The position numbers and the translations under genes were made by a program. From contig CP118523.1 in NCBI GenBank assembly GCA_029227815.1, forward strand, positions 4,278,001 through 4,342,000: a stretch of 64,000 nucleotides of DNA, given 5' to 3'. A model generated the notes under the pieces. It was not told where the DNA came from and searched no databases. It saw nothing but the letters and a program-made list of their open reading frames with translations. Below are positions 29,255 through 35,579 of this stretch, one piece after another. Numbering within the stretch: position 1 is the stretch's first letter; every line of letters starts with the position of its first letter. This stretch comes from Clostridiaceae bacterium M8S5 (lineage in GTDB: Bacteria > Bacillota > Clostridia > Tissierellales > MCWD3).

Positions 29255-29527
29255 TTATTTATTTTTATTTTTAGTGTATACAATCTTCTTAATACTATGA
29301 ATAGATAGAAAAAATTCTTCTGACAACATTTGTATTGTTATGCCCTTATTATATCTTTGCCTTATATCTTCATTTCTCCTCTTTATACTTTCTCTACTAC
29401 CTGAATTTTCTCCCCATTTCTTCCTTTCAGAACTTGAAGGAATATATAGATACTCTCCCTGTATATATTTTTGTATCTCTTTTACAAGTGTATTAGGGAG
29501 TATATCCTTTGCATTTGTATAATTCAC
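29255..29527 (-). CDS. CD3324 family protein (Mor-like HTH)
   Basis: 90 residues. It matches the small CD3324-type family of Firmicutes: an N-terminal NAKDILPNTLVKEIQKYIQGEYLYIP segment followed by RKKWGENSGSRESIKRRNEDIRQRYNKGITIQMLSEEFFLSIHSIKKIVY, a Mor-transcription-activator-like helix-turn-helix. A putative DNA-binding protein; targets unknown. AAAGGAGCGG precedes the ATG. A small cysteine-containing frame and a large inverted repeat lie in its leader. Paralog at 34715-35002. Confidence 0.82.
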   Translation of the reverse strand: MNYTNAKDILPNTLVKEIQKYIQGEYLYIPSSSERKKWGENSGSRESIKRRNEDIRQRYNKGITIQMLSEEFFLSIHSIKKIVYTKNKNK

Positions 29528-29560: not shown

Positions 29561-29649
29561 ATGCAAAGTTTGTTTATACCTATTGATTATAGGTGATGTT
29601 TAATCTGTTTACCTCTATGCAACTATCACCTGTATCACAAACTTTGCAT
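29561..29649. repeat. Nested inverted repeat in the CD3324 gene leader
   Basis: Outer arms ATGCAAAGTTTGT (29561-29573) and ACAAACTTTGCAT (29637-29649) are perfect 13-bp complements. An inner pair AGGTGAT / ATCACCT (29591-29597, 29625-29631) nests inside. The structure covers most of the small frame at 29580-29687. It could be an operator pair or a leader RNA hairpin. Confidence 0.6.
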
Positions 29650-29687
29650 AGAGTACTGTCTATTTTTGAATATGTTAATCTACCCAT
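29580..29687 (-). CDS. Putative 35-residue cysteine-containing leader protein
   Basis: ATG at 29687 preceded by an excellent AAAGGAGG at the right distance; the frame encodes a small protein containing LCKVCDTGDSC, with three cysteines in a CxxC-x5-C pattern, and ends 52 bases before the CD3324 start. It is too short for routine gene calling. The strong ribosome binding site argues it is translated. Function unknown; it might be a leader peptide or small metal-binding protein. Confidence 0.5.
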   Translation of the reverse strand: MGRLTYSKIDSTLCKVCDTGDSCIEVNRLNITYNQ

Positions 29688-30517: not shown

Positions 30518-31993
30518 TTAATTTGCCATATTTTTTGCTAAATGATATAGGGGCGCTACTCCGACACCTGCTGCTCCACTTGACATGTAATCTTTTTTCT
30601 TGCTTAAATAAGAAGTACCCGCTATGTCTAAATGAATCCAAGGTATATCTCCTACAAATTTTTCTATAAACAACCCTGCTGTTATTGATCCAGGTCTATC
30701 AGGTATATTTGTTAAATCAGCTTCAGGATGTTTTAATAATTCATAGTATTCTTCGAAAACAGGCATCCTGCAAACATATTCTCCTGACTCATCGAAGCTC
30801 TTATTCATCTTATCACTAAACTCATCATTATTACTTACGCTTAGAGTACATACTGTTCCTAATGCAGCCACTACTGATCCTGTAAGTGTTGCTATATCTA
30901 CTACTTTGTCTACTTTCTCATGATTTATTATATAGTGCACAGCATCAATTAAAGTTAATCTTCCTTCTGCATCTGTATTTCCTATATATATTGTCTTTCC
31001 TCCCATTGAACCTATGATATCTCCAGGTTTATAGCTATTACCTCCTAACATATTTTCACATGCAGCTACAACAGCTATTAAATTCACTTTAAGTTTGCTC
31101 TGAGCTACAGCACACATCGCTCCTATAACATCTCCTGCTCCACCCATATCACATTTCATGGTTGACATACCCTTAGTAGGTTTTATGCTAAGACCACCAG
31201 CATCATATGTTAGTCCTTTACCTACAAAACCTAAAGTCTCTCCACCTGGATTGCCATGATATCTCATTATTATAAACTTAGGTGGCTCACTAGAAGCTCT
31301 AGCTACTGATAAGTAAGCTTCCATTTTTAACTCTTTAATCTTATCGTAGTCATAAATCTCTACATCAAATCCACTCTTTTCACCTAGCTTTATAACTCTA
31401 TTTGATAGTTCTGTTGGTGTTAACACATTTGCTGGTTGATTTGTCAGTTCTCTAGAAACTGTGATGTTATTTCCTACTATTATGCCTTCATCAAATCCAT
31501 TTATAAAATCTTCGTTAATATTATCTAATATTAGAGTAACTTCTTTTAGTTTATCTTCTTTCTTTTCTGTTTTATAATCATCAAAATTATAATCAGCTAT
31601 TAATATAGCTTGTACAGTATTTTTAGCTATAGTATAATTACAACTTACAGCATTTACTATCCCATTAAGATAAACCCCAATAGAAGAAACCTTCTTACTT
31701 TTAAGTTGTCTATATGCTTTTCCTATAGCTTTTTTATAGTTTCTTTGAGTTAGCTTTTCTTTCTCCCCTAGGCCTACTAGCATTACTTCAACATATTCAT
31801 TGTTTTGAATAAAACAATTTGTATAAGTTTCAAGTTTTTTTCCTTCGAATAATTTCTTATTCTTTAATCTCTCAGTAGGAATATCAATACTGAGATTATT
31901 AATGCTATAAGTGTTTTTTACACTATCTTTAAAGCATGGAATTATTATTCCTTCTGGAATAATAGCTTTTGAGTTTTTGTATAGGATATTCAT
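30518..31993 (-). CDS. pepA: Leucyl aminopeptidase (M17 family), paralog 1
   Basis: 491-residue cytosolic dizinc aminopeptidase. All key residues align with E. coli PepA at identical spacing: metal ligands Lys259, Asp264, Asp282, Asp341, Glu343 and catalytic Lys271 and Arg345 (in GKGLTYDAGG and NTDAEGRL). GGGGG precedes the ATG. A close paralog is 600 bp upstream on the same strand, separated by a MutT-like gene. Residue 265 is Ala (YDAGG) where the paralog has Ser. Confidence 0.93.
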   Translation of the reverse strand: MNILYKNSKAIIPEGIIIPCFKDSVKNTYSINNLSIDIPTERLKNKKLFEGKKLETYTNCFIQNNEYVEVMLVGLGEKEKLTQRNYKKAIGKAYRQLKSKKVSSIGVYLNGIVNAVSCNYTIAKNTVQAILIADYNFDDYKTEKKEDKLKEVTLILDNINEDFINGFDEGIIVGNNITVSRELTNQPANVLTPTELSNRVIKLGEKSGFDVEIYDYDKIKELKMEAYLSVARASSEPPKFIIMRYHGNPGGETLGFVGKGLTYDAGGLSIKPTKGMSTMKCDMGGAGDVIGAMCAVAQSKLKVNLIAVVAACENMLGGNSYKPGDIIGSMGGKTIYIGNTDAEGRLTLIDAVHYIINHEKVDKVVDIATLTGSVVAALGTVCTLSVSNNDEFSDKMNKSFDESGEYVCRMPVFEEYYELLKHPEADLTNIPDRPGSITAGLFIEKFVGDIPWIHLDIAGTSYLSKKKDYMSSGAAGVGVAPLYHLAKNMAN

Positions 31994-32628: not shown

Positions 32629-34107
32629 TTACTTTTCCATAAGCTTGGCAAGATGATATAGAGGACTAACTCCAATACCTGTTCCACCACTTGATATATA
32701 ATCTTTGCCTTTAGTATTATATGATGCACCTGCAATATCTAAATGTACCCAAGGTGTATCTCCTACAAATTCTCTTATAAATAAGCCCGCTGTTATTGTA
32801 CCTGGATTGCCCGGGGAATTCGTCAAATCAGCTTCGAAATGCTTTAATTGCTCTTTAAACTCAGGGAACGAAGGCATTAGCCAAACATATTCACCTGCTT
32901 TATCATAGCTTTTATTAACTTTAGCAAAAAATTCATCATTATTACTTACTGCCCCTGTAGTATCACTTCCAAGTGCTACTACTTTGGCTCCTGTAAGAGT
33001 AGCCATATCTACAACTTTATCTACCTTTTCGTTATTGATAATATAATATACTGCATCTACTAGTGTAAGTCTACCTTCCGCATCTGTACTACCAATAAAT
33101 ATAGTTTTTCCACCCATTGATCCTATTATATCTCCAGGTCTATAGCTATTTCCTGCAACCATGTTTTCACATGCTGCTACTACCGCGGTTACATTTACAT
33201 TTAGCTTATTTTCAGCTATAGCTCCCATTGCACCGATAACACCTGCTGCACCACCCATGTCACACTTCATTGTTTTCATTCCTGCAGGACTCTTTAAAGT
33301 CAACCCACCTGAATCATATGTTAAACCTTTGCCGACAAATCCGAGTGTTTCTCCTCCAGGATTACCTTTGTATCTCATTATTATAAACTTTGGTGGCTCT
33401 GCTGAGGCTCTAGTAACAGACAAAAATGCCTCCATTTTTAGTTCTTTAATTTTATCATATTCAAGTATTTCTACTTCAAATCCTGTTTTATCCCCTAGAC
33501 TCTTAACTCTATTTGCTAGTTCTGTTGGTGTCATAACATTTGCTGGCTCGTTAACTAGCTCTCTACAAAATTCCATGTTATTACCCAAACTAACACCTTC
33601 ACCAAAACCTTTTTTAAAGTTATCATCAATATTATTTGATACTAATGTGACAGTCTCTAATTTTTCTTCTTTTTTATCTGATTTTTGTGTTATATACTTA
33701 TAATCTGCCACCACTAAAGCTTGAGCAGTATTTTTCACTACTTCCTCTTCTGAATCAAATAATCCTTCTATTTCATTTAGATAAACTCCTATACTTACTA
33801 CTTTTTTACCTTTGAGTGATTTGTAAGCCTTGCCGATAGCTTTTTTAAAATCTCTTCTAGACAGCTCTTTTTTCTCTCCCAGCCCTACTAGCATTACTTC
33901 TAATCTTGCATTGTCTTTTATAAAGTTTAAGTTGTACGTTTCTTGCTTTTCTCCTTTGAATATCTTATCACTAACCAAAAACTCTGTTGGTATCTTATTT
34001 CCTTTTAAAATCTCTAACTGATTGTAGTTTTCTTTACATTCCTTAAAGTATGGCAATATTATACCTTCAAATGAAAGATCATTTTGGATACTATAATTTA
34101 TTTTCAT
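32629..34107 (-). CDS. pepA: Leucyl aminopeptidase (M17 family), paralog 2
   Basis: 492 residues, with the same full catalytic set as E. coli PepA: Lys260, Asp265, Lys272, Asp283, Asp342, Glu344 and Arg346. It differs from paralog 1 in places near the active site: STDAEGRL instead of NTDAEGRL, and LKSPAGMKTMK instead of IKPTKGMSTMK. AGGGGCGG precedes the ATG. A tandem duplication is the simplest origin; the differences may give distinct peptide preferences. Transcribed toward the MutT-like gene but separated from it by a terminator. Confidence 0.93.
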   Translation of the reverse strand: MKINYSIQNDLSFEGIILPYFKECKENYNQLEILKGNKIPTEFLVSDKIFKGEKQETYNLNFIKDNARLEVMLVGLGEKKELSRRDFKKAIGKAYKSLKGKKVVSIGVYLNEIEGLFDSEEEVVKNTAQALVVADYKYITQKSDKKEEKLETVTLVSNNIDDNFKKGFGEGVSLGNNMEFCRELVNEPANVMTPTELANRVKSLGDKTGFEVEILEYDKIKELKMEAFLSVTRASAEPPKFIIMRYKGNPGGETLGFVGKGLTYDSGGLTLKSPAGMKTMKCDMGGAAGVIGAMGAIAENKLNVNVTAVVAACENMVAGNSYRPGDIIGSMGGKTIFIGSTDAEGRLTLVDAVYYIINNEKVDKVVDMATLTGAKVVALGSDTTGAVSNNDEFFAKVNKSYDKAGEYVWLMPSFPEFKEQLKHFEADLTNSPGNPGTITAGLFIREFVGDTPWVHLDIAGASYNTKGKDYISSGGTGIGVSPLYHLAKLMEK

Positions 34108-34697: not shown

Positions 34698-34724
34698 AAA
34701 AAAAGGAAAGTATATCACTTTCCC
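34698..34724 (-). terminator. Terminator overlapping the end of the CD3324 paralog
   Basis: On the minus strand GGAAAGT-GATAT-ACTTTCC followed by eight T; the left arm is inside the coding end. Confidence 0.7.
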
Positions 34725-35002
34725 ATTTCAGCTTTTTTCTTTTCTTGATATATGATTCTCTGTATACTTTTTTTTGATAGATAAAACTCTATTATAAGTG
34801 CTTCTACAGTAGTACCATTTTTATATTTATTAAATATTTCTTTATTTCTACTTTTAATTTCATTTTTAATATTAGTGCTTTCCCCCCAAGCTTTTCTTTT
34901 TTCCTCTTTTCTTGGAATATATATATACTTACCATCAACATATTGCTGTATAGTCTCTATAAGTTCTTTCGGTAGCACCTCTTCAATTTTTACATAGCTC
35001 AT
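34715..35002 (-). CDS. CD3324 family protein (Mor-like HTH), paralog 2
   Basis: 95 residues, clearly related to the protein at 29255 (shared VLPKELIETIQQYVDGKYIYIP, KAWGES, NKYKNGTTVEALIIEFYLSKKSIQRIIYQ). The C-terminal half is a Mor-type helix-turn-helix. AGGAGGAG precedes the ATG. A leader hairpin (35037-35077) lies upstream, as for the paralog. Possible regulator of neighbouring small-protein genes; unproven. Confidence 0.82.
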   Translation of the reverse strand: MSYVKIEEVLPKELIETIQQYVDGKYIYIPRKEEKRKAWGESTNIKNEIKSRNKEIFNKYKNGTTVEALIIEFYLSKKSIQRIIYQEKKKAEMGK

Positions 35003-35036: not shown

Positions 35037-35077
35037 AGCAAAGGCTACTATCATATTTTTATGCAATAGCCTCTGCT
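35037..35077 (-). other. Leader hairpin of the CD3324 paralog
   Basis: AGCAGAGGCTA / TAGCCTTTGCT on the minus strand, one G-T wobble, 19-base loop. It lies 35 bases upstream of the start codon and has no U-run, so it is not a standard terminator. Confidence 0.5.
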
Positions 35078-35278
35078 ATGCATTAGTGTATTCTCTCATA
35101 AAACACTGTCTTCCTTTCGTTTAATTTAGTTTGCTGATTTTATTATATACTATATTATTATATATGTCTATCGCACTACTCTACATGGCTTTGAACATAT
35201 TTACTGTCTTAGTTCTTTATTTTATTCTTAAACCATTTTACCATTCCTTATTCAGCTATAATATCATATGCTCTAAAT

Positions 35279-35494
35279 TTACTTCATTCCTAATAATGAC
35301 CTTTTAAATAATTTTATCTTAGCTAATATGCTTTGTGGCATTAATCCTTTAATATAAGCACTCATTGAAATACCAAATAATAGTCCTAATATCAATTCAT
35401 GAACATCAGTAAATCTGTACAATACCAAATACAATGCAAATGTCAATAATCCAACTTTAAACTCTAACTTTAACTCTTTATTACATTTTTTCAT
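35279..35494 (-). CDS. Small membrane protein, unknown
   Basis: 71 residues: a short charged N-terminus, then two hydrophobic helices (VGLLTFALYLVLYRF and ELILGLLFGISMSAYIKGL) and a basic C-terminal tail (KIKLFKRSLLGMK). No family recognised. GGAGG lies 8 bases before the ATG. Its promoter is embedded in three direct repeats at exact 23-bp intervals, which implies tight regulation by an unidentified DNA-binding protein. Confidence 0.7.
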   Translation of the reverse strand: MKKCNKELKLEFKVGLLTFALYLVLYRFTDVHELILGLLFGISMSAYIKGLMPQSILAKIKLFKRSLLGMK

Positions 35495-35521
35495 AGTATA
35501 ATCCTCCTCATCAAATGCAAT

Positions 35522-35579
35522 GCTTACTTTGCATTTTTAGCATAGTATACTTTGCATAATTTGTCAAGTACGCTTTGCA
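35522..35579 (-). promoter_or_regulatory. Promoter embedded in three 23-bp-spaced direct repeats
   Basis: On the minus strand, TGCAAAGCGTAC, TGCAAAGTATAC and TGCAAAGTAAGC occur at 35579, 35556 and 35533, exactly 23 bp apart. The -35 TTGACA (35562-35567) follows the first; the second fills the 17-bp spacer; the -10 TATGCT (35539-35544) precedes the third. This looks like a cooperative operator array. Confidence 0.65.

Follow-up and report, generated by a model that had tools for sequence, protein, structure and literature searches.

Three dyad operators that lie about 23–24 bp apart, centre to centre, and cover a promoter are familiar from OR1-OR2-OR3 of lambda. A second point of reference is Enterococcus faecalis, in which CylR2 is a repressor on an operator, with its release being tied to the membrane-bound CylR1 (PMC5454873). 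The locus presented here was found in a stretch of 64,000 nucleotides from the 4.68-Mb genome of Clostridiaceae bacterium M8S5, which we refer to as the window. Our analysis supports the proposal of a sequence-only reading that an operator array phased with a promoter is located there, ahead of an uncharacterised 71-residue membrane protein. The array (35517-35578) and the gene that follows it consist of these elements:

35563 to 35578, minus strand: operator O1, GCAAAGCGTACTTGAC, the right half of which holds most of the -35 hexamer; one mismatch to GYAAAGNNNNCTTTRC
35562 to 35567, minus strand: -35 hexamer TTGACA
35540 to 35555, minus strand: operator O2, GCAAAGTATACTATGC, within the spacer, its right half overlapping the -10
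35539 to 35544, minus strand: -10 hexamer TATGCT, at a 17-bp spacer from the -35
35517 to 35532, minus strand: operator O3, GCAAAGTAAGCATTGC, at the expected (predicted) transcription start
35279 to 35494, minus strand: 71-aa membrane protein gene with two hydrophobic segments, the presumed regulated gene

The heptamer TGCAAAG occurs three times on the minus strand (35579-35573, 35556-35550 and 35533-35527), at steps of exactly 23 bp around the promoter, which confirms the triple repeat described in the earlier reading. Neither a pair at this step nor a triple appeared in 200 windows simulated with a first-order Markov model, and the chance expectation per window is about 8e-4 for pairs and about 6e-8 for triples. 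The longer 12-mer TGCAAAGxxTxC that had been proposed holds for two of the three copies, while the third reads TGCAAAGTAAGC. The promoter itself, TTGACA-17-TATGCT, scores 10/12 and is one of seven promoter-like matches between 34600 and 35950, a count not above that of shuffled sequence.

The repeats had been taken for direct repeats. Instead, each TGCAAAG supplies the left arm of a dyad of 16 bp (GYAAAG-N4-CTTTRC), to which O1, O2 and O3 have one mismatch each and whose right half serves also as the -35 in O1 and as the -10 in O2, and is free in O3. The pattern used to scan GTDB comprised O1, O2 and both promoter hexamers and left out O3. Among the matches listed, 77 of 121 arrays carry the left half of O3 without mismatch at +46 (90 if one mismatch is allowed), and at least five of the six letters of CTTTRC stand at exactly +57 in 76 of these 77, compared with at most one of 77 at the other offsets tried. 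The pairing of the O3 halves in these listed arrays, 5.1 of 6 in register, falls to 1.7 or less when they are shifted by one base. Since the letters CTTGAC and CTATRC are themselves imposed by the search pattern, it is from the O3 dyad that we infer the right halves of O1 and O2 to be the same half-site, bent into a -35 and a -10, respectively. Dyads alone are too common to provide specificity, with 165 matches per strand at up to two mismatches, and their reversed control (44 matches) is weak, as CG occurs in it. The sequence WTGCAAAGNNTNC has 40 matches in the genome, and most of the 30 examined lie in long open frames.

Two of the three occurrences of TGCAAAG-N16-TGCAAAG in the 4.68-Mb genome belong to the window array and one lies elsewhere, with no match to the reversed control. 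This single other array (G000:C1:2515294-2515323) is located 1.80 Mb away, in the promoter of a small XRE gene:

G000:C1:2515041-2515256: the genome's own XRE gene, 72 aa, HTH_3 (E 5e-14)

The gene is followed by that of a 155-aa membrane protein without a Pfam or NCBIfam match above cut-off, and the pair occupies about 2.5146-2.5153 Mb of G000:C1. Its promoter, TTGACA-17-TATRCT, has O2 and O3 in the same register as the window and no recognisable O1. With no mismatch the register pattern is found at these two promoters, and at up to three mismatches at no further place in the genome. The window has the dyads at 23-bp spacing and in the -35/-10 register of CylR2-like XRE operons, and a matching XRE regulator with an array of its own is encoded in the same genome. 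No XRE gene is located directly downstream of the window array, or anywhere within the 3-kb locus, and the array, which is followed by the 71-aa gene, is classed here as a target site and not as an XRE operon.

The GTDB scan yielded at least 120 stretches (121 places) with the array among the matches listed; the list was not drawn at random and shares genomes with our order and class searches. Record titles place the listed arrays mostly in Bacillota and include Ruminococcus, Acetobacterium, Paenibacillus, Butyrivibrio, Coriobacteriia, Thermotogae and Chloroflexi. XRE genes were called by blastp to the genome's own XRE (E<=1e-3): in 117 of the 120 loci among the matches listed, one begins within 450 bp of the array, at a median distance of 42 bp (78/80 in a count on 80 of these loci). 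The remaining three comprise L163 and L172, which end at the locus border, and L210, in which the XRE gene follows after about 1.4 kb; the array of L210 is present in tandem, with two copies that are exact and lie 94 bp apart, and others that are degenerate. The order search gave 25 places in 23 of 249 genomes and the class search 19 places in 18 of 391, the reversed control being 0 in both. Three loci (L076, L087, L097) had been set aside as chance matches before counting. An XRE gene is present in 37 of the 41 loci from both searches; it is missing from the window and from three weak matches, which deviate from the promoter-array pattern by 3-5 mismatches. In 134 of 136 loci, the half-site base agrees with residue 36 of the XRE protein: C accompanies Thr, and T accompanies Ile or Ser. 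We rejected this covariation as proof of binding, since the tree has only two changes of the base and the agreement is hence a clade effect and not independent proof.

The 71-aa protein belongs to no Pfam or NCBIfam family above cut-off, and 11 of the 249 genomes of the order gave a sequence match. An un-iterated profile built from six members detected homologues in the array loci L119 (4e-16), L150 (6e-14), L115 (4e-12), L137 (2e-9) and L128 (1e-6). With the iterated profile (E<=1e-10), a homologue is located downstream of the XRE gene and its partner, as third gene of the operon, in seven of the 120 loci among the matches listed (L119, L123, L128, L137, L150, L187 and L202), a count that is partly circular because several homologues fed the profile. 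The same profile revealed a fragment in L176 and an upstream homologue in L115. Among the 41 order and class loci, the homologue lies downstream in L230, L234-L236, L090 and L093-L096, and L233 has the homologue as the first gene behind the array, then the XRE gene and the partner; owing to the overlap of the two sets their counts are not additive. Loci with partner-type or weak 71-aa matches, namely L114, L127, L142 and L151 from GTDB and L237, L240 and L091 from the order and class searches, were set aside before counting. Seven orphan homologues in other genomes (L005, L006, L008, L009, L098, L099 and L100) have no array upstream, and control by the array is consequently not universal for the family. 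A profile comparison likened the 71-aa protein to a shortened form of the first hairpin of the partner, with a probability of 87. Its frame, at E 0.4-0.7, nevertheless did no better than the background of 320 window ORFs, and we make no such claim.

Taken together, it is very probable that the array is a control region with three operators for a small XRE repressor of the CylR2-like kind, with the 71-aa gene as its target in trans. The array with its dyads, their phasing with the promoter, the company of XRE genes and the place of the 71-aa family in XRE operons can be read directly from the sequences. A dimer of the XRE/Cro-CI repressor (65-72 aa) would bind each GYAAAG-N4-CTTTRC dyad, and as O1, O2 and O3, with centres 23 bp apart, would cover the -35, the spacer with the -10, and the start site, their occupancy could shut RNA polymerase out. 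Cooperative binding, which had been deduced from the spacing before, is plausible. Usually the array would serve the autoregulation of an operon that consists of the XRE gene, a multi-pass membrane protein of about 130-170 aa and, in some species, the 71-aa membrane protein. As the XRE gene with its partner and the 71-aa gene are 1.80 Mb apart and each have their own array, repression of the 71-aa gene in trans appears most likely; it would then be induced together with the XRE operon, and the membrane partner may relay the inducing signal, by analogy with CylR1/CylR2. Judged by its sequence, the window holds an orphan target promoter of a small-XRE switch, with an array that is real, conserved and explained as to its class. 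Two features are unusual: the three operators are rigidly laid out, and the 71-aa gene stands apart from its operon.

A candidate third target was noticed at G000:C1:165506-165523 (L226), where TTGACA-17-TATACT is combined with a single strong operator, GCAAAGCTTGCTATGC, placed 4 bp after the -10 (5 bp in the array). It precedes a secreted protein that is TraB/GumN-like by eye.

One could also imagine that the array is a relic, left behind when the XRE gene and its partner were deleted from a duplicated operon, and that it regulates nothing. Among the 41 order and class places, the window array is indeed the only one that has a proper promoter but is not followed by an XRE gene. However, all three of its operators are nearly intact, more so than at the own XRE promoter with its missing O1, and the 71-codon ORF, which starts at 35494, has kept an intact frame and a Shine-Dalgarno sequence between array and start, which makes a relic improbable. 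Another small XRE paralogue could act as the main regulator instead of the one at 2.515 Mb, as the genome encodes three further paralogues with 43-45% identity, one of which, at 881 kb, is accompanied by operators of a related kind (TGTAAAG). These operators, however, carry T and not C, are 44 bp apart and lack O2, and the other two paralogues have no array, so that we give this possibility little credence.

CD3324 (Mor-like) proteins as binders of the TGCAAAG repeats and regulators of the 71-aa gene might be suggested by the position of a CD3324 gene directly downstream of it (34715-35002) and by the recurrence of the heptamer upstream of another one. We reject this as highly improbable, since the array is found upstream of none of the four CD3324 genes of the genome and the two window CD3324 proteins have no relative among the 8013 ORFs of the array loci (E<=1e-3). 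The link drawn in the sequence-only reading does not hold: the genome-wide motif search led to an XRE promoter as the only other array, and it is small XRE genes that accompany nearly all of the arrays listed. The inverted TGCAAAG repeat described upstream of a CD3324 gene does exist but lacks the 23-bp phasing, and by eye its heptamer near 29650, one arm of the repeat, falls in a short ORF preceded by a Shine-Dalgarno sequence (29580-29687, minus strand). The downstream CD3324 gene has a promoter-like match of its own (11/12).

By eye, short ORFs with a Shine-Dalgarno-like sequence are present upstream of all four CD3324 genes (in the window at 29580-29687 and 35076-35099, both minus strand, and upstream of L043 and L044), in some cases with hairpin-like repeats and in none with an array. 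The ORF before the CD3324 gene that starts at 29527 has 35 codons with three cysteines, also by eye, and control by a leader peptide is possible for these genes. Two similar leucyl-aminopeptidase-like genes (by eye) are arranged in tandem at 30518-31993 and 32629-34107, minus strand.

A search of open-licence papers found no published description of the array switch. The pattern TGYAAAG-N4-CTTGACA-N5-TGYAAAG-N4-CTATNCT is a rigid code that marks one small-XRE switch in at least 120 genome stretches and by which its regulon can be read from sequence. With it, the 71-aa protein and the multi-pass membrane protein, both anonymous before, become partners whose regulator can be put to the test. More tentatively, and as an idea that we would not yet favour, this could be a one-component switch linked to the membrane that is widespread, mostly in Bacillota, and undescribed. 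It would be composed of a CylR2-like repressor, a sensor that crosses the membrane several times and a small membrane protein with two segments, with a rigid promoter in which the second halves of the operators are the -35 and the -10. The small protein would here have moved to a second site with a complete array, forming a dispersed regulon, and might modulate the sensor in trans.

Compared with the lambda operators, the window array shares three dyads at about 23–24 bp centre to centre and the covered promoter. It differs in having one promoter, with no divergent repressor/Cro pair seen near the array, and a 72-aa protein with no room for an oligomerisation domain; the viral contigs scanned for the array pattern gave no match. 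Dyad-like sites that start with GTAAAG also lie over the -35, and again after the -10, at the small XRE paralogues L223 and L007, which have two operators, with TGTAAAG 44 bp apart, and no O2. The closest solved structures to the own XRE protein are a PbsX-family regulator (9k3w) and CylR2, the latter an XRE repressor of about 66 aa that is homologous to it (phmmer E 5e-12) and likewise paired with a membrane protein. What distinguishes the present system from CylR2/CylR1 are three dyads phase-locked with the -35, the -10 and the start site, together with a presumably autoregulated operon.
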